From Acidocella sp. (lineage in GTDB: Bacteria; Pseudomonadota; Alphaproteobacteria; Acetobacterales; Acetobacteraceae), in NCBI GenBank assembly GCA_027451225.1, contig DAIDJU010000078.1:1-60972 (forward strand): a stretch of 60,972 bases of DNA, read 5' to 3'. The number at the start of each line of letters is the position of its first letter. The first letter of the stretch is position 1. Below, piece after piece: positions 22,488 through 41,319 of the stretch. Both the position numbers and the translations under genes were made by a program. The notes beneath the pieces are model-generated. The model had not been told where the DNA came from. It did not search any database and saw only the letters and a list, made by a program, of their open reading frames with translations.

Positions 22488-23165
22488 TCACTGCAACTGC
22501 ACCACCGGCCCCTGCGCGGTAACTTCGGCGGAGAAGCGCCGGCCGGAGGACGGATTGGTCAGCAAAATCGTGTCCCCAATGCGTCCGGCCTGCTGCGCCA
22601 CGGCGTTGACCGAAAGTAGCACGCCACCGCTGATGACCTGCACCGTGACGGTCTGCCCGGCCTTGATGACGAGCGGGGCCTGGACTGTGTCCTGGGTAAT
22701 GACCATGCCTGCGGCCAGGGACATCATCGCGCTGGCCCCCACGAGTTGAGCGGGGTCCGCGTAGATTTGCCGGCCGGCAAAGAGCTGCACCGGCTCACGC
22801 CGCACAATCAGATCGCCCGCCGCCAGGGTTTGCCCAGCCGCCACCGGATGCGCCGTGACCACCACAGCCTCGCTCTGCGCCACGGTGACGGAGACATAGA
22901 GTGTCCAGCCAGGAGCCGGGCAATGCACTGCCGCCTGCTCGTAAGGCGCCACGCCGCTGATGCTCACCGCGAGCGGGGCGGTGCAGGCCTGCATGTATTT
23001 CGCCCCGTTCACCGGCCCCAGGCTGAGCGTCGCGTCGGGCGGCACAACCATCTGGGCGGCTTGGCGTACTGCGGCGTTCACTGCATCCGGGTCCTGCCCG
23101 GCCCAGGCCAGCCCAGGCCAGATGGCCAGCAGACAGGCCATGGCGCGGCGCGCCTGGTTTCTCAT
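22488..23165 (-). CDS. flgA: Flagellar basal body P-ring formation protein FlgA
   Basis: HPVAAGQTLAAGDLIVRREPVQLFAGRQI, VIKAGQTVTVQVISGGVLLSVNAVAQQAGRIGDTILLTN. Confidence 0.85.
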   Translation of the reverse strand: MRNQARRAMACLLAIWPGLAWAGQDPDAVNAAVRQAAQMVVPPDATLSLGPVNGAKYMQACTAPLAVSISGVAPYEQAAVHCPAPGWTLYVSVTVAQSEAVVVTAHPVAAGQTLAAGDLIVRREPVQLFAGRQIYADPAQLVGASAMMSLAAGMVITQDTVQAPLVIKAGQTVTVQVISGGVLLSVNAVAQQAGRIGDTILLTNPSSGRRFSAEVTAQGPVVQLQ

Positions 23166-26100
23166 TCCGCAGCGCTCCGCAGCCCGGCATTGCCGCCGCC
23201 AAAATTCACCCAAGGCGGCAGAGCATCTTCACTGGCAGGAAGAGCCAGCGCCGCTTCGCGGGCCTTCGCGCCACGCTTCAGCGTCGCGCTGAGGTCGGTG
23301 ACGGCGCCGTTCAGCGCCTCTTTCCATGCGGGCAGCCGGTTTTTCAGCCGCACTGCCGCCAGGCTGGACGGGATGTCGAAGCGCTCATCCACCAGCAAAT
23401 GACATCCCGCCGCCGCCGCCAGCAGCACTGGGTAATGGTCGGCATAAGCCTCCATATTGGCCGGGCGGAGCATGATCTGCGGCCCCAGCTCAACCATGAC
23501 ATGCGCCCAGGCGGCCTCGGTTTCGGGCGGCGTCAGGCGGGCCATGGCGCCAGGATAGGTCTCGCCGGGGCGTTCGACCACGATCCAGGACGCAATCTCC
23601 AACGTCGAGGAGACCAATTCCTGGAACCATTGCGGAGTGTTGCCCTCGTCCACCCACAGCACGCGCGGTTTGGTGTTCAGCCCCGTGGCGGGTTGCAGGC
23701 TGGACCAGACATGGCGCGACAAGGCCGGACGCCACAGCTCCACGGCTTGGCCGGGACGGCTCAGGCTGCGCAGCTGCGCCACCAGTCCCGGAGAGGTGGC
23801 GTAGATGCCGGCAGCTTCGGCCAGCACGGGTTTTACCGCTTCCAGATCCGCGGGCATGGCGGTGTAAACCGCGGTGTAGGCCGGGCTATGCGGAAATGCA
23901 GGTATAGCCGGATTTACCCGCACCCAGGCAGCCGGGGCGCGGCGGCCCAGCTCGGCGGCGTTGGGGCGCTCGGGGGCCCAGTCAGCCGAGCAAACGCCAT
24001 CCCGCCGCAATGTCCGCGCTGTGTTCAGTACCGCTATACCTGGGCCCGGCTCGCCGGTTACCAACAGGTCCAGCAGATCGGCAGGTGTGGCGGGCACCAG
24101 CCCGGCGCGGGCTTCATCGGCCAGCAGATCGCCATGCAGCGAAAGCGCCGGATGATGGTACGGATCGGTCCAGGACACCGCCCGCGCGGCCTTCGAGCCA
24201 TCGCGGAACTGCGCGGCCGCATCGGCCTGCACCGAACCTGCGGGCATGACGAAGGAGATATCGGGCGTCCACACCAGCCGCGCGCCCTGGGCGCGGAGCT
24301 GTGCGCCAAGGTCGATCCACAGCGCATCGCCACTTAGGGCCGGGAATTCGCAGGCGGCCAGGGCGGCTGTGCGCGCCAGCAGGCCGGGCGAGGTGAGCGC
24401 GCTGGCCTCCTGGTCCACCAGCAGCCAGCCGCCGGGGCCGGGGTCGTCGGCCATATGCCCGGCGCCCAGCCGCGTATCCGCGCCGATGACGATGGGCCCC
24501 TGCACCATGGCGAAGGTTTTATTCCCATTCTCCAGCGGCATGAGCGTGCGCGCCGCCACCATCGCCACGCCTGGATCGGCCAGACGTATCCGCAGTTCGG
24601 ACAGCCAATGCGGCATGGCGGTTTCGGCCCGCACATCCAGCACCGCCACGTGCGGCGTGGTCACCATGGCCAGGGCTTGGCGCAGCGCCTCGGCCTGGGT
24701 GAGGTCCGGGGCGGGCGGCACGGCCAGCACCTTGCCCTCCAGCGCCTCGGTCTGGCGGGTGACTTCCGTCAGGTAGTTGTGCAAACCGGGATTCAGCGCC
24801 GCACCGGCCAGAATCACCGGCCCGGTGAGCGGCTGGCTGGTGAGTAGCGTGGTGAGCCAGCGGTCGAGCGCCGGGATCTCGCCGCCATCGCACAGCATGA
24901 TGATGCTGGTGCCCGGATCGGCCACTATGCGCAGGTGATGGAACAGCCCCATATGCTGGCGGTTCTGCACCTCGGCCGGCAGCCCGGCGCGGCGCAGATG
25001 CTCCTGTACCGCCGTGGCGGCGCGCGCGCAGAAGATGTCGGCGCGGATAGCGTCGCGCTGGCTCTGCGGGCTGCGGGTGAACAGGGCCTCGGGCAGGCGC
25101 TCCACCTTGGCGCCGTCCTCGGCGATGCGGAGCTGGAAATCGAACTCCTCGGCCCCGGCGCGCGCGGGATCGAACCCGCCCAGGCGTTGCACAGCGCGAG
25201 CCCCGTACCACACCCAATCGCCCAGATAAGCGGCCTGACGCAGGCGCGTGACATCCCAACCCGGCTTGTGCCGCACCCAATGGCTGGTCTCGCGCGGCAC
25301 GGTCTCGTCGCAATACAGCATCTCCGCTCCGGTAGCCGCGGCGTGCAAGGCGAAGCGCAGGCAGGCATCGGGGGTGATTGTGTCGCCCGCATTCAGCACG
25401 GCGACGTAATCGGCCGCCGCCGCCGCTTGGTTCAGCGCGGCGCAAACGGCATGGGTCATCGCTTCCGGGGCGGCGTCCACGGCGGTCACGCTGCGGCCTT
25501 CGAGTTCCAGCGTCTCGGCGGCCAGAATGAGGACGCTGGCGGGCCGCTCCCATTGCGCATCGAGCGCCGCCAGCGTGTCGTTCACCGCATGGGCGCGCCC
25601 GCTGGGAGCGGCGACAATCACGGCCAGACGCGGCAATGCGCCAGCGGCTTCCTTCAGGCTTTGCAGCCGGATCCTCGCGCCGTCGTCGCTGCGCTCGGGC
25701 GGGCGGAGCGTGGCGACAGCACCACCAGCTTTGGTCTGCCCAACGACCTGGGTGAACGAGCCGCCCATGGCGGGGAAGGCCCGCCCACGGCTGGCGCCGA
25801 TCTCGGTGAGAAAACCGACCAGATCCTCCGTCTCCTCGGCAAACCCGTCCCAGATCTCGGGCAGGAAATCCCGCGCCTGGATCGCATCCCAGGTGCGGGA
25901 GACCAGATCGTCCAGCGGACGGCACAGCCCTTCGCGCGGCAACGGCTCGCTGCGGTTGAGCTGGGTGGTGAGGTAGCCGGCGGCCTCCTTCAGCCCGCGC
26001 GCGGGGATCGGCAGGTCCAGCTCCTCGGCGATCCGGTGGAGCTGCTTCGCGGGTTCGCCGAGCAGTTCCTGATAGGTGGTCCAGCTACGCGGCAAATGCC

Positions 26101-26608
26101 GGGCCAGACGCTCGCCGGAGGTGGCATAGGTCATCCACAGCAGCAGCGCATGGGCGCGGCTCAGCCCGTTCTTGCGCTGCTGGCTGGAGGCGGCGGTCCA
26201 CGGGTCGCGGAAGATATGCACCACATGCGGCTTATGCCCGGCCTGACGGGCGGCACGCTCATAGGCGGGCAAGGTGCGGCACAGATGCGGGTGCTTAAGC
26301 CCCCAGAGCTTGTCCGCCTTGGTGAAGCGGCGGCGGATGATTTCCTCCAGACGCGACCAGAAGGCGCTGAGATCGGCGCGCTCGGTCCATCCCGGCGGCA
26401 GGCCGCGCACATCCGTCCAATCCACGCCAAGGCGGGCGAACAATTCCACGTCGTACTGGATCAGCTCCGGGATTTCGTAGAAGCCGAGTGGATTATGCTC
26501 ATTTGGGTCGGCATCGTTATAAAATTTCACCCCAGCGCGGGTCAGCGCGCCGGAAAGCGCCGAAGTGCCGCTGCGGTAATAGCCGACAATGAAAATCGCA
26601 TCCGACAT
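23162..26608 (-). CDS. Multidomain sulfotransferase / glycosyltransferase-2-like protein (1148 aa), putative flagellar modification enzyme
   Basis: N-terminal PAPS-type P-loop IFIVGYYRSGTSALSGAL and HIFRDPWTAASSQQ; GT2-like LNAGDTITPDACL...CDETVP...GGFDPARAGAEEFDFQLRIAE; second GT2-like segment. Confidence 0.8.
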   Translation of the reverse strand: MSDAIFIVGYYRSGTSALSGALTRAGVKFYNDADPNEHNPLGFYEIPELIQYDVELFARLGVDWTDVRGLPPGWTERADLSAFWSRLEEIIRRRFTKADKLWGLKHPHLCRTLPAYERAARQAGHKPHVVHIFRDPWTAASSQQRKNGLSRAHALLLWMTYATSGERLARHLPRSWTTYQELLGEPAKQLHRIAEELDLPIPARGLKEAAGYLTTQLNRSEPLPREGLCRPLDDLVSRTWDAIQARDFLPEIWDGFAEETEDLVGFLTEIGASRGRAFPAMGGSFTQVVGQTKAGGAVATLRPPERSDDGARIRLQSLKEAAGALPRLAVIVAAPSGRAHAVNDTLAALDAQWERPASVLILAAETLELEGRSVTAVDAAPEAMTHAVCAALNQAAAAADYVAVLNAGDTITPDACLRFALHAAATGAEMLYCDETVPRETSHWVRHKPGWDVTRLRQAAYLGDWVWYGARAVQRLGGFDPARAGAEEFDFQLRIAEDGAKVERLPEALFTRSPQSQRDAIRADIFCARAATAVQEHLRRAGLPAEVQNRQHMGLFHHLRIVADPGTSIIMLCDGGEIPALDRWLTTLLTSQPLTGPVILAGAALNPGLHNYLTEVTRQTEALEGKVLAVPPAPDLTQAEALRQALAMVTTPHVAVLDVRAETAMPHWLSELRIRLADPGVAMVAARTLMPLENGNKTFAMVQGPIVIGADTRLGAGHMADDPGPGGWLLVDQEASALTSPGLLARTAALAACEFPALSGDALWIDLGAQLRAQGARLVWTPDISFVMPAGSVQADAAAQFRDGSKAARAVSWTDPYHHPALSLHGDLLADEARAGLVPATPADLLDLLVTGEPGPGIAVLNTARTLRRDGVCSADWAPERPNAAELGRRAPAAWVRVNPAIPAFPHSPAYTAVYTAMPADLEAVKPVLAEAAGIYATSPGLVAQLRSLSRPGQAVELWRPALSRHVWSSLQPATGLNTKPRVLWVDEGNTPQWFQELVSSTLEIASWIVVERPGETYPGAMARLTPPETEAAWAHVMVELGPQIMLRPANMEAYADHYPVLLAAAAGCHLLVDERFDIPSSLAAVRLKNRLPAWKEALNGAVTDLSATLKRGAKAREAALALPASEDALPPWVNFGGGNAGLRSAAE

Positions 26609-29634: not shown

Positions 29635-30284
29635 AGCATGGTCTCGGGCAGGCCCAGCGCATTGCGAATGGCGTCCGCCCGCCCCTGTAAGGTAGCGTCC
29701 CATTCGATCTTATCGAGCGGATCACCTTCCGGGCTGCTGAGTTCCACCACCGCGCCGCCAGAGGCGATCTTTTCATCCGCGACCAGTTGCACCGTCTGCG
29801 ATTCAATGAGCGGCTCGATCTGGGCATGGTCTGCGGGGTTGAGCCGCAGTTGCAGGCTCTGGCGCGGACCTCGCTCCGCCGCGGCTTCCTCCAGCAGCGT
29901 CGTCACCAGCGTGTACAGCCCCTCGGCATTATTGCCCGCGCCAGCGCCGATAATGTGCCGCGCCAACAGAAAGGCCAACTCCGTGACCAGTCCGGCCAGA
30001 TCGCTCTCTTTCTTTGCCAGCGGTTCGGACAGCTGAGCCGCAGCGCCTTGCAATGCGGCCGTGGCGAAGGCCAGAGCCTCCTTGAGCGGCGTCATTTCGG
30101 CGCGCGCCGCCTGTAACCCGGCCTCGCGTGCTTCGGCCTCGGCCATCTCTCGCAATTTGGCGACTTCCTGGCGCACGCGCCGGGAAATCTCCGCTTCCTG
30201 CGCCGCCAGATCGGCGGTATCCTGCGCCAGCACTGTTTGCACGAACGCCTTGTTGCGGCTTTCAGAAACCGTAACAAAACTCAT
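29631..30284 (-). CDS. fliH: Flagellar assembly protein FliH
   Basis: FliH-like C-terminus LQLRLNPADHAQIEPLI...SGGAVVELSSPEGDPLDKIEWDATLQGRADAI; before fliI. Confidence 0.8.
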   Translation of the reverse strand: MSFVTVSESRNKAFVQTVLAQDTADLAAQEAEISRRVRQEVAKLREMAEAEAREAGLQAARAEMTPLKEALAFATAALQGAAAQLSEPLAKKESDLAGLVTELAFLLARHIIGAGAGNNAEGLYTLVTTLLEEAAAERGPRQSLQLRLNPADHAQIEPLIESQTVQLVADEKIASGGAVVELSSPEGDPLDKIEWDATLQGRADAIRNALGLPETML

Positions 30285-30541
30285 GATTCGGCTTCCTTGC
30301 CAGTGCCTATCTGCTTAATGGCGGCACCCAGCAACACTATGCCCACCCAGAACGCTGGCATAAGCATGGCCAGAATAGCCCGCACCAGCAGCGCGACGGC
30401 AATCGTCTCCAACCCCCATACGGCGATGGTGGCGGCCGAAAAAGATGCCGGCTCATTCATGGCCGCCCAAGCCGCCGCGGCGGCAACAGTCAGCATCATC
30501 GGTTTCAGAAGTTTCGGCGTCTTGTCTGCTTTGGCCATCAC
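30281..30541 (-). CDS. Small membrane protein of unknown function in flagellar operon
   Basis: 86 aa with 2-3 hydrophobic segments; overlaps fliH start, lies after motB. Confidence 0.65.
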   Translation of the reverse strand: MMAKADKTPKLLKPMMLTVAAAAAWAAMNEPASFSAATIAVWGLETIAVALLVRAILAMLMPAFWVGIVLLGAAIKQIGTGKEAES

Positions 30542-32720: not shown

Positions 32721-34809
32721 TGGCGGCTCCCGGCTCGGCCGTGGTGATCACCTGCAACGGTGTGGTGTCGGGGATTTCCTCCAGTGCGACCACCGGGATG
32801 ATGCCCGCCACGATGCGCGCCACGGCGCGGCGCATGGTGGCTTGCACCACCAGCACCGGCTTGGCGCCCTTGCCGCGCATGCTCCGCGCCGCCTGCACCG
32901 CCGCATCGCGCAGATGCTGCGCCGTCTCGGCCTCCACCTCCGCGCCGATGCCGCCATCCTTGGCGGTGCGCAGGGATTTGCCGACCAGTTCCTCCAGCTT
33001 GGGCGGCAACACGGCCACACGCAGCGTCGGCTCGGTGCCCAGAAGTTGGCTGACGATGAAGCGCCCCAGCCGCAGGCGGACCGCCGCCAGCAGCTTCTCG
33101 GGGTCTTTCACCCCGCCATCGGCGCATTCAACCAGCGCCTCGGCGATCCGCTCGAAGTCACGCACCGGCACTTCCTCGGCCAGCAGCCCCTGCAATACCT
33201 GGCGCACCAAGCCGATGGAGAGGTTCGTGCGCAGATCCTCGGCCAGACGCGGCGTGGTTTCGGCCAAGCGGGTAAGCAACCCTTCCACCTGCGGGCGGCC
33301 AAGCAGCTCCGCGCCATGGCGTTTAAGGATTTCAGCGAAATGCGTGGCGATGGCGGAAGGAGCGTCCACCACCGTATAGCCCAGCTCCTCGGCGGCCGGG
33401 ATCGCGCCTTGCGGAATCCACACCGCCGCCTGACCAAAGGCCGGGTCCTTCACCGCACGGCCCACGGCCAGCTTCTCGGTCACCATCGGTCCTTCGATGG
33501 CCAGCCATTGGCCGGGCCACGCCTCACCACCGCCAATGGCCGCGCCACGCAGGGTGAAGCGGTAGCCATGAGCGCTCAACTCCGAGGAATCGCGAATATG
33601 CACGGCGGGCACCAGGAAGCCCATGGCCCGGCCGTAACGCTGGCGCACAGCGGTCAGGCGGTTGAGCAGACGCCCCTCGCCCGCCCCGACCAGCGGCGTC
33701 AGCGCGAAGCCGATATTCATGCCCAGCGGATCAACGCCGGAGACATCCACCAGCGAGTCCACCTTGGGCTCGGCGGGCTTGCCATCCGCCGCTGCTGCCT
33801 TGCCGGGCTCGGTGGCGGCAGACTCCTGAGCGGGGCGGGAGAGACGCCATGCCGCCGTGCCAAGCGCCGTGGCCAGCAGCAGGAAGGGGATATGCGCCAT
33901 CTCGGGAATCAGCCCGATGGCCCCGGTCAGCCCGGCGGCAATGGCCAGCGCCTGCGGATATTTGGAGAGCTGGGATTTGATCTGCCCCCCAATATCCTCG
34001 CCCGTAGCCACGCGCGTGACGACCAAGCCCGCGGCGACGGAGATGGTGAGAGAGGGGATCTGCGCGGCCAAGCCGTCGCCCACCGTGAGCAGCGTGTAGG
34101 TACGCGCGGCATCCGCCAGCGGCAGGCCGTATTGCAGCATGCCGATGATGAGCCCGCCCAGCATGTTGACGACGAGAATGATCATCGCCGCCACCACGTC
34201 GCCACGCACGAACTTGCTTGCGCCATCCATGGCGCCGAAGAAATCCGCCTCGCGCCGTAGCATCTCGCGCCGCCGCTCCGCCGCCTGAGGGGAGAGGATG
34301 CCGGCATTGATCTCGGCGTCGATGGCCATCTGCCGGCCCGGCAGAGAGTCCAACATGAAGCGCGCGGACACTTCAGCCACGCGGGATGCGCCTTTCGTCA
34401 CCACCACAAAGTTAATGATGATGAGGATGAGGAAAATGATGCCGCCAACGACGTAATTACCACCGACCGCGAACTGGCCAAAGGATTCGATAACCTTGCC
34501 CGCCGCGCCCGGCCCGGCATAGCCGTTCAGCAGAATGGCGCGCGCAGTGGCGACGTTGAGGGCCAGACGCATGAGCGTGGTGGCCAGCAGCACGGAGGGG
34601 AAAGAGGAAAACTCGGCCGGCGAAGGGATGTAGAGCGACGCACCAAGAATCACGAGCCCGGCGGAGATGTTCAGCGCGAACAGAAAAGAGATGCAGGCGG
34701 GCGGCAGCGGCACCACGAGCATCACCAGCACCAGCAGAATGACAATGGGGCCAGAGAGCTGCGTGAGGTTCAGCGCGGTGCCGCGCGGCAGGGCGGCGGC
34801 TTCAGCCAT
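32713..34809 (-). CDS. flhA: Flagellar export apparatus FlhA
   Basis: NISAGLVILGASLYIPSPAEFSSFPSVLLATTLMRLALNVATARAIL. Confidence 0.95.
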   Translation of the reverse strand: MAEAAALPRGTALNLTQLSGPIVILLVLVMLVVPLPPACISFLFALNISAGLVILGASLYIPSPAEFSSFPSVLLATTLMRLALNVATARAILLNGYAGPGAAGKVIESFGQFAVGGNYVVGGIIFLILIIINFVVVTKGASRVAEVSARFMLDSLPGRQMAIDAEINAGILSPQAAERRREMLRREADFFGAMDGASKFVRGDVVAAMIILVVNMLGGLIIGMLQYGLPLADAARTYTLLTVGDGLAAQIPSLTISVAAGLVVTRVATGEDIGGQIKSQLSKYPQALAIAAGLTGAIGLIPEMAHIPFLLLATALGTAAWRLSRPAQESAATEPGKAAAADGKPAEPKVDSLVDVSGVDPLGMNIGFALTPLVGAGEGRLLNRLTAVRQRYGRAMGFLVPAVHIRDSSELSAHGYRFTLRGAAIGGGEAWPGQWLAIEGPMVTEKLAVGRAVKDPAFGQAAVWIPQGAIPAAEELGYTVVDAPSAIATHFAEILKRHGAELLGRPQVEGLLTRLAETTPRLAEDLRTNLSIGLVRQVLQGLLAEEVPVRDFERIAEALVECADGGVKDPEKLLAAVRLRLGRFIVSQLLGTEPTLRVAVLPPKLEELVGKSLRTAKDGGIGAEVEAETAQHLRDAAVQAARSMRGKGAKPVLVVQATMRRAVARIVAGIIPVVALEEIPDTTPLQVITTAEPGAANA

Positions 34810-35065
34810 GGATCAATCCCGGAATGGCGAGGAACAGGCGCGTGGCGTAGCTTTCCACCCCGCCCAGCATCAGCCGCCCGGCGGCGGTGCTCAGCGCCGC
34901 CATCCCAGCCAGCTTCAGCACGAAGGGGATGGACGCCTCCTTCACCTGCGTGGCGGTTTGCAGCACGCCAACGGCCAGGCCGATGATGAGCATGAGCAGC
35001 ATGATCGGGGCGGCAAGCTCGGCAAACGCCACCCAGGCGCCCACGCTCACCCCGCCCGCACTCAT
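34802..35065 (-). CDS. fliQ: FliQ family export protein (paralog 1, beside flhA)
   Basis: AELAAPIMLLMLIIGLAVGVLQTATQVKEASIPFVLKLAGM. Confidence 0.85.
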   Translation of the reverse strand: MSAGGVSVGAWVAFAELAAPIMLLMLIIGLAVGVLQTATQVKEASIPFVLKLAGMAALSTAAGRLMLGGVESYATRLFLAIPGLIHG

Positions 35066-35430
35066 GCGGCGCCTCCGGCGTCTTGGTCGGTGTCTTCCAC
35101 CAATGCGGTCACGCGTACGCCGTAACAGTCATTGGCGACGGCCACCACTTCGCCGTAAGCCATCTTCTGGCCGTTGGCGTAGATGGTCAGCGGCTCGCCC
35201 ACCGTTTGGTCCAGCGCGATGATCTGCCCATGGCGCAGGGCGCGCAGGTCCTTCACGGTGATCTGCGTGCGCCCCAACTCCACCGCGAGCGCGACCTGCA
35301 CCTTGTCCAGCACATTACGGGCGGTGAGTACCGGCACGCCGCGCGGCTGCCCCTGGATGCGCTCCAGCTCTATACGCTCCGGCTCCGCGAGCCGGTCTGC
35401 CGCGCCCAAGCGGGTTTTCTGTTCAGACAT
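35062..35430 (-). CDS. fliN: Putative internally initiated free FliN (in frame within the fusion)
   Basis: In-frame ATG at 35430 (MSEQKTRLGAAD...) preceded by AAGGAG-acgtaaac-ATG. Confidence 0.55.
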   Translation of the reverse strand: MSEQKTRLGAADRLAEPERIELERIQGQPRGVPVLTARNVLDKVQVALAVELGRTQITVKDLRALRHGQIIALDQTVGEPLTIYANGQKMAYGEVVAVANDCYGVRVTALVEDTDQDAGGAA

Positions 35431-36324
35431 GTTTACGTCTCCTTCTTCCTCGAACGTCCGCACGCGGCAGCAGATATGCCCACTGTCCTGGCCGTAATCG
35501 GCCCAGAACAAATCCACATCGCCAGAAACGGCCACAGCCTCCGACCACAGCGATAAAGGCAGAATGCTGCCCACCGTCACACGCTCGAACACCGCCAGCG
35601 GCACCACGGCGCGCGCCACCTCGAAGCGCAGATCAACCTGCGTACTTTCGGTCAGGGATTCGATGGCGTTGATCCAGCCTGTATCCTCACCCCGCCCGCC
35701 AAGCAGCCCCGATTGCGAGGCGACCTTCACCTCCAGCGGCTCGAACCCCGAATACGGCGCGATGAGCTTGATGGTGCCGGAACCAAGCGCGGTCTCGAAA
35801 ATACCTGTGACGGCAATCATCCAGTCCTGGCCATCGGCGATGGCGAGCATGCCGGTGGCGTTCTCATACGCGATGGGCGCAAGATCGAGCTGCGCCAGCG
35901 GGTTTAGCGTCTCGGCAATGGTGGAGAGCGAGAGATCGATCATCTGCTTGCCGATGCGCGTCTCCAGCATCGACAGCTCATAACGCTCGAAGGGTTGCGC
36001 CGCGGTGGCGCCGCACAGCGCATCCACCACCGCGCCGATGAGATCGCCATCGATCGCCAAAAGCATGCGCCCGCGCAGCGGCGCGAGTTCAGACACGCCG
36101 GCCAGCATCACCTCGGGCAGCGAGGACATCGCCGCCTCGTGGCTGATGACGTTGTTGATGCAGGAGAGAAGCTGCACCGAATGGCGCATGCGCTGGAAAA
36201 GCGCAAAAGCGATCTGCCGCATGAAACGGTCCGACAGATTCTCCATGAGCACCGACCGCAACTGCGGGGCGCGCATGGGATCGAGCAGATCAATAACCTC
36301 CGCGTCCATCGGGTCCTCAAGCAT
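35062..36324 (-). CDS. Flagellar motor switch FliM-FliN fusion
   Basis: One 420-aa ORF: FliM-like residues ~1-290 (LRGRMLLAIDGDLIGAVVDALCG...), then C-terminal FliN/SpoA domain (VPVLTARNVLDKVQVALAVELGRTQITVKDLRALRHGQIIALDQTVGEPLTIYANGQKMAYGEVVAVANDCYGVRVTALV). Confidence 0.85.
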   Translation of the reverse strand: MLEDPMDAEVIDLLDPMRAPQLRSVLMENLSDRFMRQIAFALFQRMRHSVQLLSCINNVISHEAAMSSLPEVMLAGVSELAPLRGRMLLAIDGDLIGAVVDALCGATAAQPFERYELSMLETRIGKQMIDLSLSTIAETLNPLAQLDLAPIAYENATGMLAIADGQDWMIAVTGIFETALGSGTIKLIAPYSGFEPLEVKVASQSGLLGGRGEDTGWINAIESLTESTQVDLRFEVARAVVPLAVFERVTVGSILPLSLWSEAVAVSGDVDLFWADYGQDSGHICCRVRTFEEEGDVNMSEQKTRLGAADRLAEPERIELERIQGQPRGVPVLTARNVLDKVQVALAVELGRTQITVKDLRALRHGQIIALDQTVGEPLTIYANGQKMAYGEVVAVANDCYGVRVTALVEDTDQDAGGAA

Positions 36325-37693
36325 AAGCGCTCACCCCGCTATTATCCTGGCGGGAGGTTTCCGATGTGTTTCGCTGTGGCGTGCTCGTGCCGCCGCCACG
36401 CCAATTCTGGGCATTCTGCCCGCCTTGCCCGGCGCTCTGGCCAAACTGCCCGCCTACCTGCGCCTGACCCAGCGTAAGGCCGGACTGCGCCATCGTCTGG
36501 GACAAGCCATTCAGCCCGGATTGCAGCGCCTGCGCCCCCGCCGATGTATCCGGCACAAACAGCACGTTCACCTGCCCTTGCTGGCCAAGCCCTACATGCA
36601 CCGAGAGATTGCCCAAGCCCGGCGGATCAAGCCGTAGCACCGCGCCGCTCTGCCCGGCCTGATGCATGGCGGTGACGGTGGCGGCCAGAGCCGAGGCCGA
36701 ACTCGCGGTCACGCTTCCGCTATCCGCCGTGCTGGACGTTGCCGCCACGGTGCTGGCGGCGGTTGACGCCGTGGCCGCTGCGGCGCTTGCCGGTGTCGCG
36801 ACGCTCATCTGTGCAACGGCGTTTATTGACGAAGCATCCTTATGTTGCGGCACCAGCACTGCCTTGCTGCCGGTGTTAGCATCCGCCGCCACAGCTTGCT
36901 GCGCCGCGCTGCGTGCCAACAAGCTAGCCGCCGTGCTGACGGTCGTGGTTTTGGCCGCTGACGTCACCGAGGCCGTGGTCGAGGCCGAGTCCTGGGTGCT
37001 CTGGTTGACATCGGCCGCCGCAACCACATTAGCAGCCTGAGCCTGGGGCGGTTGAACGGTCACGCTCGTCACCTGCGCCGTTACAGCCGTTGCCGTTGGC
37101 GTAACTTGTGTGCTTGCCGATGCAGCCGGCGTTGCGCTTGCTGCAATTTTGGTATCGGCGGTGGATGCCCCGGCAACATTGCCCGTGGCCACGCTGGCGG
37201 GCGTTGCGACCGGAACCGTGGTGGTAAGCTGCTCTTTAACCGCTTGCCCCACCTGAACCTTGCTTGGCTCCACGGTTGTTTTTGCCGCAGGCTGCGCAGT
37301 TTGTTCCGGCGTGGTGCTATTGTTCAACAGCATCGCCGCGAACGGGTTCACCGTCTGCTGGCTGGTGCCGGTGCTCCCCGTCTTGGCCGTATCCGCAAGT
37401 TGCAACCCCACGGCCGAAGCCTCCCGTTTTTCAGACTTCTTCTCCGCAGGTGCCGCAGCCGTGGCGTCAGATGCCGTTCTGCTCTGACTGCTGGTCTCGG
37501 AGGTGCCATCTGCCGTTTTGGTATCGGCCGCGGCGTTATTCGCACCCGTGCTGGCCGGTGCGCTGGCTTGCTGCTGGGGGGCAGCGTTGGCTGCGGCCAA
37601 AGCGTCTGACCATGTCGCCGTATCCGGCTGCGTGGCGCTATCGGTCTGGGGCGCGGTAGCTTGCGTAACAGAGGTGATTGCGGGAAGAGCCAT
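36317..37693 (-). CDS. fliK: Flagellar hook-length control protein FliK
   Basis: Ala/Thr/Val/Ser-rich N-terminus; C-terminal core GAVLRLDPPGLGNLSVHVGLGQQGQVNVLFVPDTSAGAQALQSGLNGL. Confidence 0.8.
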   Translation of the reverse strand: MALPAITSVTQATAPQTDSATQPDTATWSDALAAANAAPQQQASAPASTGANNAAADTKTADGTSETSSQSRTASDATAAAPAEKKSEKREASAVGLQLADTAKTGSTGTSQQTVNPFAAMLLNNSTTPEQTAQPAAKTTVEPSKVQVGQAVKEQLTTTVPVATPASVATGNVAGASTADTKIAASATPAASASTQVTPTATAVTAQVTSVTVQPPQAQAANVVAAADVNQSTQDSASTTASVTSAAKTTTVSTAASLLARSAAQQAVAADANTGSKAVLVPQHKDASSINAVAQMSVATPASAAAATASTAASTVAATSSTADSGSVTASSASALAATVTAMHQAGQSGAVLRLDPPGLGNLSVHVGLGQQGQVNVLFVPDTSAGAQALQSGLNGLSQTMAQSGLTLGQAQVGGQFGQSAGQGGQNAQNWRGGGTSTPQRNTSETSRQDNSGVSAYA

Positions 37694-38724
37694 CAGACCA
37701 TCTCCTCTGTTGCGCTGATTGTAATTCGTCCTTCGCCGGCAAGCTTGAGTGCCGCATCGACGATGTCGCTCTGCGCCGCCAATGCGTCGGCACGGCGGAT
37801 GGGCGGGCCGGAACGCAGCTCCTCCTTGAGAATTTCCACCTGCCGGGCCGAAAGGTTCTGGAAGAACCTGTTTCGCAACGTTTCGTCCACCAGGCGCAGC
37901 GCCGGGGCCAGCTTTTCGCCAGGAACCTCGCGCAGCAGAATTTGCAGCGAACGGTCGGTAAGCTTGCCAAGATCGATAAAGGTAAAAAGATTCTCGCGGA
38001 TTTTTTCCGCCGTCTTGGCATCCCGCGTGTCGATTGCGCTCAGCACCATGTCCGACATGCCTGTTTGGAAATGATTTAGAATATCAGCCGTCTGTTTCGC
38101 ACCACCAAGATTGGTGACACGCCGCGATGTCGTACCGGTTGCGCTGGTCATTTCCTCCAGCATGTCACGCAGTTCCGCCACCACATTCGGCGAGACAACG
38201 TCAAGCGTGGAGAAGCGGTACAGAGATTCGATCGCCAATGGCTCCGGCAGAAAGGTGAGCATGTTTGCTCCCAGTTCGTGGGGGATATGCGCCAAAAGCA
38301 ATGCGATGGTCTGCGGCCGTTCGTTAGCCATCTGCATGGCGAGCGTGCGGGCATCGGTGTTAGGAGGCAACTGGAAGGCCGAACGGCGCTCCACGCGGGT
38401 TAACCGGTCTATGATTTCCTTTGCCTGAGCTTCACCTAAAGCGGAAACCAGCACACGGTTAAGAAATTTGATGCTGTCGCCACCAACACCGGTCAATCCT
38501 AGATCGCTGGCAAAAGACAGCATGACGTCCTCGCGCAGCTGTGGCGGTACCATTTTCAGCGCCGTCATCGCCGCTGAAATGCGATTAACGCTAGCTTCGT
38601 CCATCTCGCGCAGTACGGCGGCAGCAGTTTCTTCGCCCAGTTCACGCAGCACCATCGCCGCGCGCTCCGGCCCACTCAGTTGCGCCGTGCCAGGTGCTGG
38701 AAGTTGTTTCTGCACTTCACTCAT
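37693..38724 (-). CDS. fliG: Flagellar motor switch protein FliG
   Basis: LSGPERAAMVLRELGEETAAAVLREM; NERPQTIALLLAHI; LREVPGEKLAPALRLVDETLRNRFFQNLSAR. Confidence 0.93.
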   Translation of the reverse strand: MSEVQKQLPAPGTAQLSGPERAAMVLRELGEETAAAVLREMDEASVNRISAAMTALKMVPPQLREDVMLSFASDLGLTGVGGDSIKFLNRVLVSALGEAQAKEIIDRLTRVERRSAFQLPPNTDARTLAMQMANERPQTIALLLAHIPHELGANMLTFLPEPLAIESLYRFSTLDVVSPNVVAELRDMLEEMTSATGTTSRRVTNLGGAKQTADILNHFQTGMSDMVLSAIDTRDAKTAEKIRENLFTFIDLGKLTDRSLQILLREVPGEKLAPALRLVDETLRNRFFQNLSARQVEILKEELRSGPPIRRADALAAQSDIVDAALKLAGEGRITISATEEMV

Positions 38725-40950: not shown

Positions 40951-41319
40951 ATGCCTACGATCCTTGTTCTCGACGACTCGGCCACGATGGTCATGAGTCT
41001 GTCGCACGTCTTGAAAGGCGCCGGCTATGACGTTGAAACCGGCGCAAATGGCCGTGAGGGTATCACCAAGATATCAGACGGCGTGAAACCTTCCGTCGTT
41101 CTCACGGACCTCAACATGCCCGAGCTGGATGGTATTGGCTTTATCAAGGAAGCCCGCAAAATTCCGTCTATGCGCTCTACACCAATCATCGTACTCACCA
41201 CAGAAGCGAGCGGTCGTAAGCGCGATGAAGCCAGGGCTGCGGGCGCCTCCGGCTGGCTGACAAAGCCGGCTGAACCGAACCAGCTTCTCTCTGTCGTCAA
41301 GCAGCTCTGCCCTCGCTAA
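40951..41319 (+). CDS. Single-domain CheY-like response regulator
   Basis: ILVLDDSATMVMSL, VLTDLNMPELDGIGFI, GWLTKPAEPNQLL. Confidence 0.9.
   Translation: MPTILVLDDSATMVMSLSHVLKGAGYDVETGANGREGITKISDGVKPSVVLTDLNMPELDGIGFIKEARKIPSMRSTPIIVLTTEASGRKRDEARAAGASGWLTKPAEPNQLLSVVKQLCPR

Follow-up and report, generated by a model that had tools for sequence, protein, structure and literature searches.

A single gene in the flagellar locus of an Acidocella sp. very probably supplies two proteins from two translation starts, a ~45-kDa FliM::FliN fusion and a ~13-kDa free FliN, which together would build the C-ring. This reading is based on a stretch of 60,972 nucleotides (GenBank assembly GCA_027451225.1, contig DAIDJU010000078.1), referred to below as the window, and on comparison with related genomes. 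The positions of the features are listed in Table 1.

Table 1. Features of the fliM::fliN region in the window
Feature	Position	Strand	Description	Basis
fliQ	34802..35065	(-)	start overlaps fliMN stop (ATGA)	PF01313; sequence
fliM::fliN fusion gene	35062..36324	(-)	420 aa, ~45.4 kDa	open frame; orthologues intact
Free FliN, putative product	35062..35430	(-)	122 aa, ~13.1 kDa	
SpoA2 = FliN domain	35098..35310	(-)		PF01052, 76.8 bits
Linker, residues 291-336	35317..35454	(-)	predicted disordered, sequence-variable, houses internal start	pLDDT < 50; alignment
Internal start ATG (Met299)	35428..35430	(-)	homologous to stand-alone FliN start of type 2	linker ATG + SD in 29/29 type-1 fusions
Internal Shine-Dalgarno AAGGAG	35439..35444	(-)	8 nt upstream of ATG	AGGA/GGAG-type SD in 29/29 type-1 fusions
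SpoA1 = FliM C-terminal domain	35458..35649	(-)		PF01052, 28.3 bits, above cut-off
FliM middle domain, residues 26-198	35731..36249	(-)		PF02154; AlphaFold2/Foldseek match to FliM middle domains
fliK	36317..37693	(-)	3' end overlaps fliMN start by 8 bp	PF02120; sequence
fliG	37693..38724	(-)	rotor partner of FliM	FliG_N/M/C
CheY-like single-domain response regulator	40951..41319	(+)		PF00072

FliM and FliN domains lie in one open reading frame

An earlier note on this DNA had described a FliM-like region followed by a FliN-type SpoA domain in one unbroken 420-aa frame, and both Pfam and a profile search of the window's own genome confirmed this. The FliM middle domain scored 60.6 bits with PF02154 (cut-off 27, E 2e-16), and FliMN_C/FliN matched residues 339-409 of the fusion in two stretches (E 3e-28). 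In the genome search, SpoA1 was located directly C-terminal to the FliM middle domain, as in FliM, and SpoA1 and SpoA2 formed part of a single ORF. With TIGR01397, the equivalog model for full-length FliM, the fusion reached 123.9 bits, which is under the cut-off of 219.6; judged by this score, the FliM of the fusion is divergent, extended, and non-standard. The score with the FliN model TIGR02480 (77.1 bits) was slightly under the cut-off of 84, and that with the SctQ model TIGR02551 (58 bits) under the cut-off of 100.8; the locus is flagellar and not an injectisome locus.

In the AlphaFold2 model of the fusion (mean pLDDT 70), the FliM middle domain and the SpoA domains were mostly predicted at pLDDT 70-90 and the stretch 291-336, within which the internal start lies, was disordered, while the overall domain placement is unreliable at a pTM of 0.44. 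Foldseek matched the FliM part and the SpoA pair to Salmonella C-ring FliM and to the engineered FliM(SPOA)::FliN construct 4yxb.

The earlier note described the canonical CheY-binding motif LSQDEIDALL as at best degenerate in the fusion. This is correct in itself, but a D-L-L core at residues 12-14, near the middle domain, is invariant in all 25 fusions aligned (alignment A1). The GGxG motif of canonical FliM binds FliG. At the position of this motif (residues 104-107, window 36004-36015), the fusions of the same alignment read CGA[TNS] or CGST. From these sequences, FliG and CheY binding by the Acidocella motor may differ in detail.

The gene order in the window is fliK-[fliM::fliN]-fliQ-flhA. 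These genes belong to a near-complete flagellar locus that carries fliF, fliG, fliK, the fusion gene, fliQ, flhA, a fliA-like sigma factor gene, motA, motB, fliH, and fliI on one strand and flg genes, fliP, fliR, and flhB on the opposite strand, and that also includes genes for flagellin and a CheY-like protein.

Distribution of the fusion

When the genome to which the window belongs (2.6 Mb, ~97% complete) was searched with the FliMN_C and FliM profiles, nothing else scored above the cut-off. This extends to the genome the observation of the earlier note that no separate fliM or fliN was present, and a hidden second copy of either gene was rejected. Most Acidocella genomes carried the intact fused frame, among them those of A. 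aromatica DSM 27026, A. aquatica, A. aminolytica, and A. facilis, and the closest named match to the window's fusion was that of A. aromatica DSM 27026 with 91% identity. As the frame is open in many independent Acidocella genomes, an assembly error or missed indel is excluded.

Among the genomes sampled (200 of the family, 289 of the class, and 398 of the phylum), Acidocella and one sister genus were the only groups with full-length fusions, and the possibility that the fusion is a widespread arrangement was rejected. The Acidocella genomes that do not contain the fusion are mostly incomplete, are devoid of FlhA, too, or possess a different, canonical flagellum (G019, G028); in G029, whose assembly is 85% complete, FlhA is present and the fusion absent. 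Two genomes, G004 (L107, L108) and G236 (L109, L110), contain two flagellar clusters each; the second fusion copies are very divergent, and both fusions of each genome retain the internal start. In the sister genus, a 351-aa two-SpoA protein is encoded near an FlhA-like gene (G185:C59:242970-243449), and is possibly an injectisome SctQ.

A Shine-Dalgarno sequence and a start codon are conserved within the linker

At the junction of the FliM and FliN parts, the window reads gaagAAGGAGacgtaaacATG, with the ATG at 35430 representing Met299. The earlier note had regarded this site as a strong in-frame Shine-Dalgarno (SD) sequence with start codon and had proposed searching related genomes for it and for the fused frame; both are kept across the genus, the site at the nucleotide level. 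For the comparison, fusions located within the fliK-fliQ operon were designated type 1, and 29 such sequences were examined. In 29/29 of them the linker contains an ATG in frame, preceded by an SD at the distance expected for a start; this is a count of non-independent events, as these proteins (~44-91% identical to the window protein) are related and in some cases near-identical.

The SD-anti-SD duplex energy at the internal start of the type-1 fusions had a median of -9.5 kcal/mol and was -6 or lower in all cases, compared to a median of -2.25 for 438 other internal Met codons, of which 5% reached -7. The codon for the glycine within the SD was GGA in 25 of 26 sequences, although GGA accounts for only 10% of the glycine codons. 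In 22 further columns of conserved glycine, which come from the same sequences and share the same history, GGA was used in 0 to 4 of the 29 sequences. The SD was retained also where the amino acids differ, for example in L022, L024, L025, and L110. The duplex energies, the GGA codon bias, and the presence in 29/29 sequences led us to reject a chance SD, and the pattern of conservation indicates that the internal start is under selection. The RNA at the internal start was also predicted to be open, the median site being less structured than 98% of the windows of the same gene.

A role of the conserved AAGGAG as a ribosome-pausing signal or as an aid to fliQ coupling, with no start involved, appears extremely improbable. 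SD-like codons can slow ribosomes, but the ATG is kept along with the SD at the distance expected for a start, the surrounding RNA is unstructured, the fliQ start is located ~365 nt downstream, and the homologous position is the start of a gene in the type-2 genomes described below.

No part of the fusion varies more than the linker surrounding the internal start, which differs both in length and in sequence, and the ERVELE stretch that follows the internal Met is present in nearly all type-1 fusions. Being predicted as disordered, the linker could be cut, and the fusion might thus be a precursor from which a protease releases FliM and FliN, with a minor role for the internal start. This explanation is very unlikely, as no conserved cleavage motif was found in the linker, which varies except for the start and ERVELE, and as cleavage would leave the conservation of the SD bases and of the rare codon unexplained.

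In the window, the predicted SD strengths of the primary start (-9.8 kcal/mol) and the internal start (-9.7 kcal/mol) are alike, and the relative output of the two starts is therefore unpredictable. Across type 1 the SD of the primary start is weaker, with a median of -5.9 kcal/mol.

Relocated fusions without the internal start and separate fliN genes

Six further fusions (L027-L030, L097, and L098), which share about 45-47% identity with the window protein, were designated type 2. They are located outside the operon and adjoin cheY, the product of which is a relative of the CheY-like protein of the window. The internal start was looked for in the six type-2 fusions and was absent from all of them. 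In five of the six genomes, a separate fliN is located exactly between fliK and fliQ. The sixth, G031, yielded neither a separate fliN nor FlhA, and since FlhA is missing, too, the operon is absent from this assembly. The metagenome-assembled genome G031 is rated 100% complete and has a type-2 FliM (L106) beside cheY and no detectable FlhA.

The separate FliN of the type-2 genomes starts at a Met homologous to Met299, and the separate FliNs share the ERVELE stretch, which occurs in none of the type-2 fusions; the long type-2 protein retains a second, diverged SpoA2. In a FliN tree, computed without L143 (a wrongly framed row), the separate FliNs clustered with the FliN parts of the fusions and apart from other alphaproteobacterial FliNs, and were joined with the two G004 fusions with a support of 98/99. 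In the FliM and FliN trees type 2 groups with the two fusions of G004, with moderate support in the case of FliM. As five of the six genomes lacking the site have a separate fliN, a long FliM-FliN protein and a source of free FliN appear to be the constant feature and their encoding by one gene or two the variable one. The type-2 genomes thus provide evidence beyond the earlier note that agrees with its two-product reading, with a separate fliN beginning at the homologous Met.

Origin of the fusion

Two genomes of another alphaproteobacterial family, G773 (L153) and G800 (L154), have clusters of the same order in which fliM and fliN are separate genes that overlap in different frames. In the other genomes sampled, adjacent fliM and fliN have a stop between them. 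By comparison of the gene order, the overlapping genes of G773 and G800 likely represent the arrangement before the fusion. Joining of overlapping fliM and fliN into one frame would have created the fused protein and left the fliN start inside it. As to whether one gene or two came first within the Acidocella group, an operon tree rooted with the separate-gene family had a basal polytomy, and two changes were needed.

Because such separate, overlapping fliM and fliN clusters exist, a leftover start is to be expected directly after the fusion event, and the internal SD and ATG might be an unused relic of the old fliN start in a gene from which the full-length fusion alone is made. We consider this improbable. 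A relic is expected to decay, yet SD and ATG have been kept at ~50% protein identity or less, a rare codon is held at the SD glycine, and only the relocated type-2 copies lack the site, a separate fliN being present in five of their six genomes.

Proposed mechanism of C-ring assembly

According to the two-start reading, which we favour, ribosomes initiating at 36324 would synthesize FliM::FliN, composed of the FliM middle domain, SpoA1, the disordered ~46-residue linker, and SpoA2, whereas those initiating at 35430, using the SD and ATG in the linker-coding stretch, would synthesize free FliN of 122 aa. The FliN domain of the fusion would pair with a FliM SpoA, and dimers of free FliN would occupy the remaining FliN places, resulting in the usual FliM:FliN domain ratio of ~1:3 from one gene.

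In Salmonella, a FliM-FliN fusion as the sole source led to few and fragmented C-rings, a defect complemented by FliN and not by FliM (Kihara 1996, as reported in PMC4832279). The internal start would meet the need for free FliN exposed by this mutant. In the injectisome, full-length Spa33 or YscQ binds two copies of its own internally started C-terminal fragment (PMC4832279, PMC4295842). In view of this 1:2 unit and the FliN requirement of the Salmonella mutant, a fusion with two free FliN molecules would fit the known unit.

Comparison with known systems

For the SctQ family (YscQ, SpaO, Spa33, and HrcQ), formation of a full-length protein and an internally started SctQ-C is established (PMC4832279, PMC4295842, PMC8553256). 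The Acidocella fusion resembles SctQ in carrying two SpoA domains in one chain, in the conserved internal start that precedes SpoA2, and in the putative free copy of the C-terminal SpoA. It differs in that the gene is part of a flagellar locus that is nearly complete and includes genes for MotA/MotB, FliG, flagellin, and the hook, that a true FliM middle domain makes up the N-terminal part, and that the linker between SpoA1 and SpoA2 comprises ~46 residues predicted to be disordered. Since the nearest relatives of the fusion are flagellar fliM and fliN, the likeness to SctQ is probably convergent, and the two-product solution has apparently arisen a second time.

Canonical C-rings, such as those of Salmonella and Thermotoga, contain the same domains encoded by two genes, and the T. 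maritima complex has FliM and FliN at a ratio of 1:3 (PMC4832279). In Acidocella, by contrast, one gene encodes a chain in which one FliN is covalently attached to the FliM SpoA. The domain order of the Acidocella fusion is the same as in the Salmonella fusion mutant and in the crystallised engineered FliM(SPOA)::FliN construct 4yxb (PMC4443714). However, the former is a mutant that requires added free FliN and the latter is engineered, whereas the Acidocella fusion is natural, genus-wide, and appears to supply its own free FliN.

Two further systems share parts of this design. FliY of Bacillus and Thermotoga, in which a FliN domain is joined to a CheC-like phosphatase part, resembles the Acidocella fusion in having a C-terminal FliN domain on a larger switch protein, but differs by the phosphatase part and by the coexistence of a separate FliM, and the score of the fusion with the NCBIfam FliY model was far under the cut-off. 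In Pseudomonas syringae, SctQ is split into HrcQA and HrcQB, the latter being a C-terminal SpoA protein encoded by a separate gene. The type-2 Acidocella genomes are similar in that their C-terminal SpoA protein is separately encoded, but differ in that the long protein still carries a second, diverged SpoA2.

Engineered and mutant FliM-FliN fusions are already known, as is the internal start of SctQ, which is well established. In the literature searched, which covered few subscription journals, neither a naturally fused FliM-FliN of a flagellum nor an internal start of this kind in a flagellar gene was found to be described. It is likely that Acidocella represents a natural, rotating flagellar C-ring built from a covalently joined FliM SpoA-FliN SpoA chain, in which the internal start adds the remaining FliN, as a convergent version of SctQ/SctQ-C whose products relatives would have split into two genes. 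The formation of pods in the injectisome and of a ring in the flagellum has been explained by the covalent SPOA1-SPOA2 joint of the injectisome (PMC13059759). If our reading is true, this linkage alone would not preclude a continuous ring, contrary to the pod explanation (PMC13059759), and the long disordered linker predicted by the model may permit a ring in Acidocella. The C-ring is thought to have a shared building unit, formed by a long two-SpoA protein and a SpoA2 dimer in the injectisome versus FliM and three FliN in the flagellum. Acidocella offers natural flagella with the joint, close relatives with two genes, and a related separate-gene cluster, and these arrangements make it possible to test, in environmental acidophiles, the stoichiometry, the closure of the ring, and whether free FliN is needed.

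Further genes of the flagellar locus

Between motB and fliH, the window encodes an 86-aa protein (30281-30541, minus strand) that is present in most of the related clusters compared and has no Pfam match. A protein of 1148 aa that weakly matches sulfotransferases and glycosyltransferases is encoded between flagellin and a flgL-like gene (23162-26608, minus strand) and, from these matches, is possibly involved in flagellin modification.
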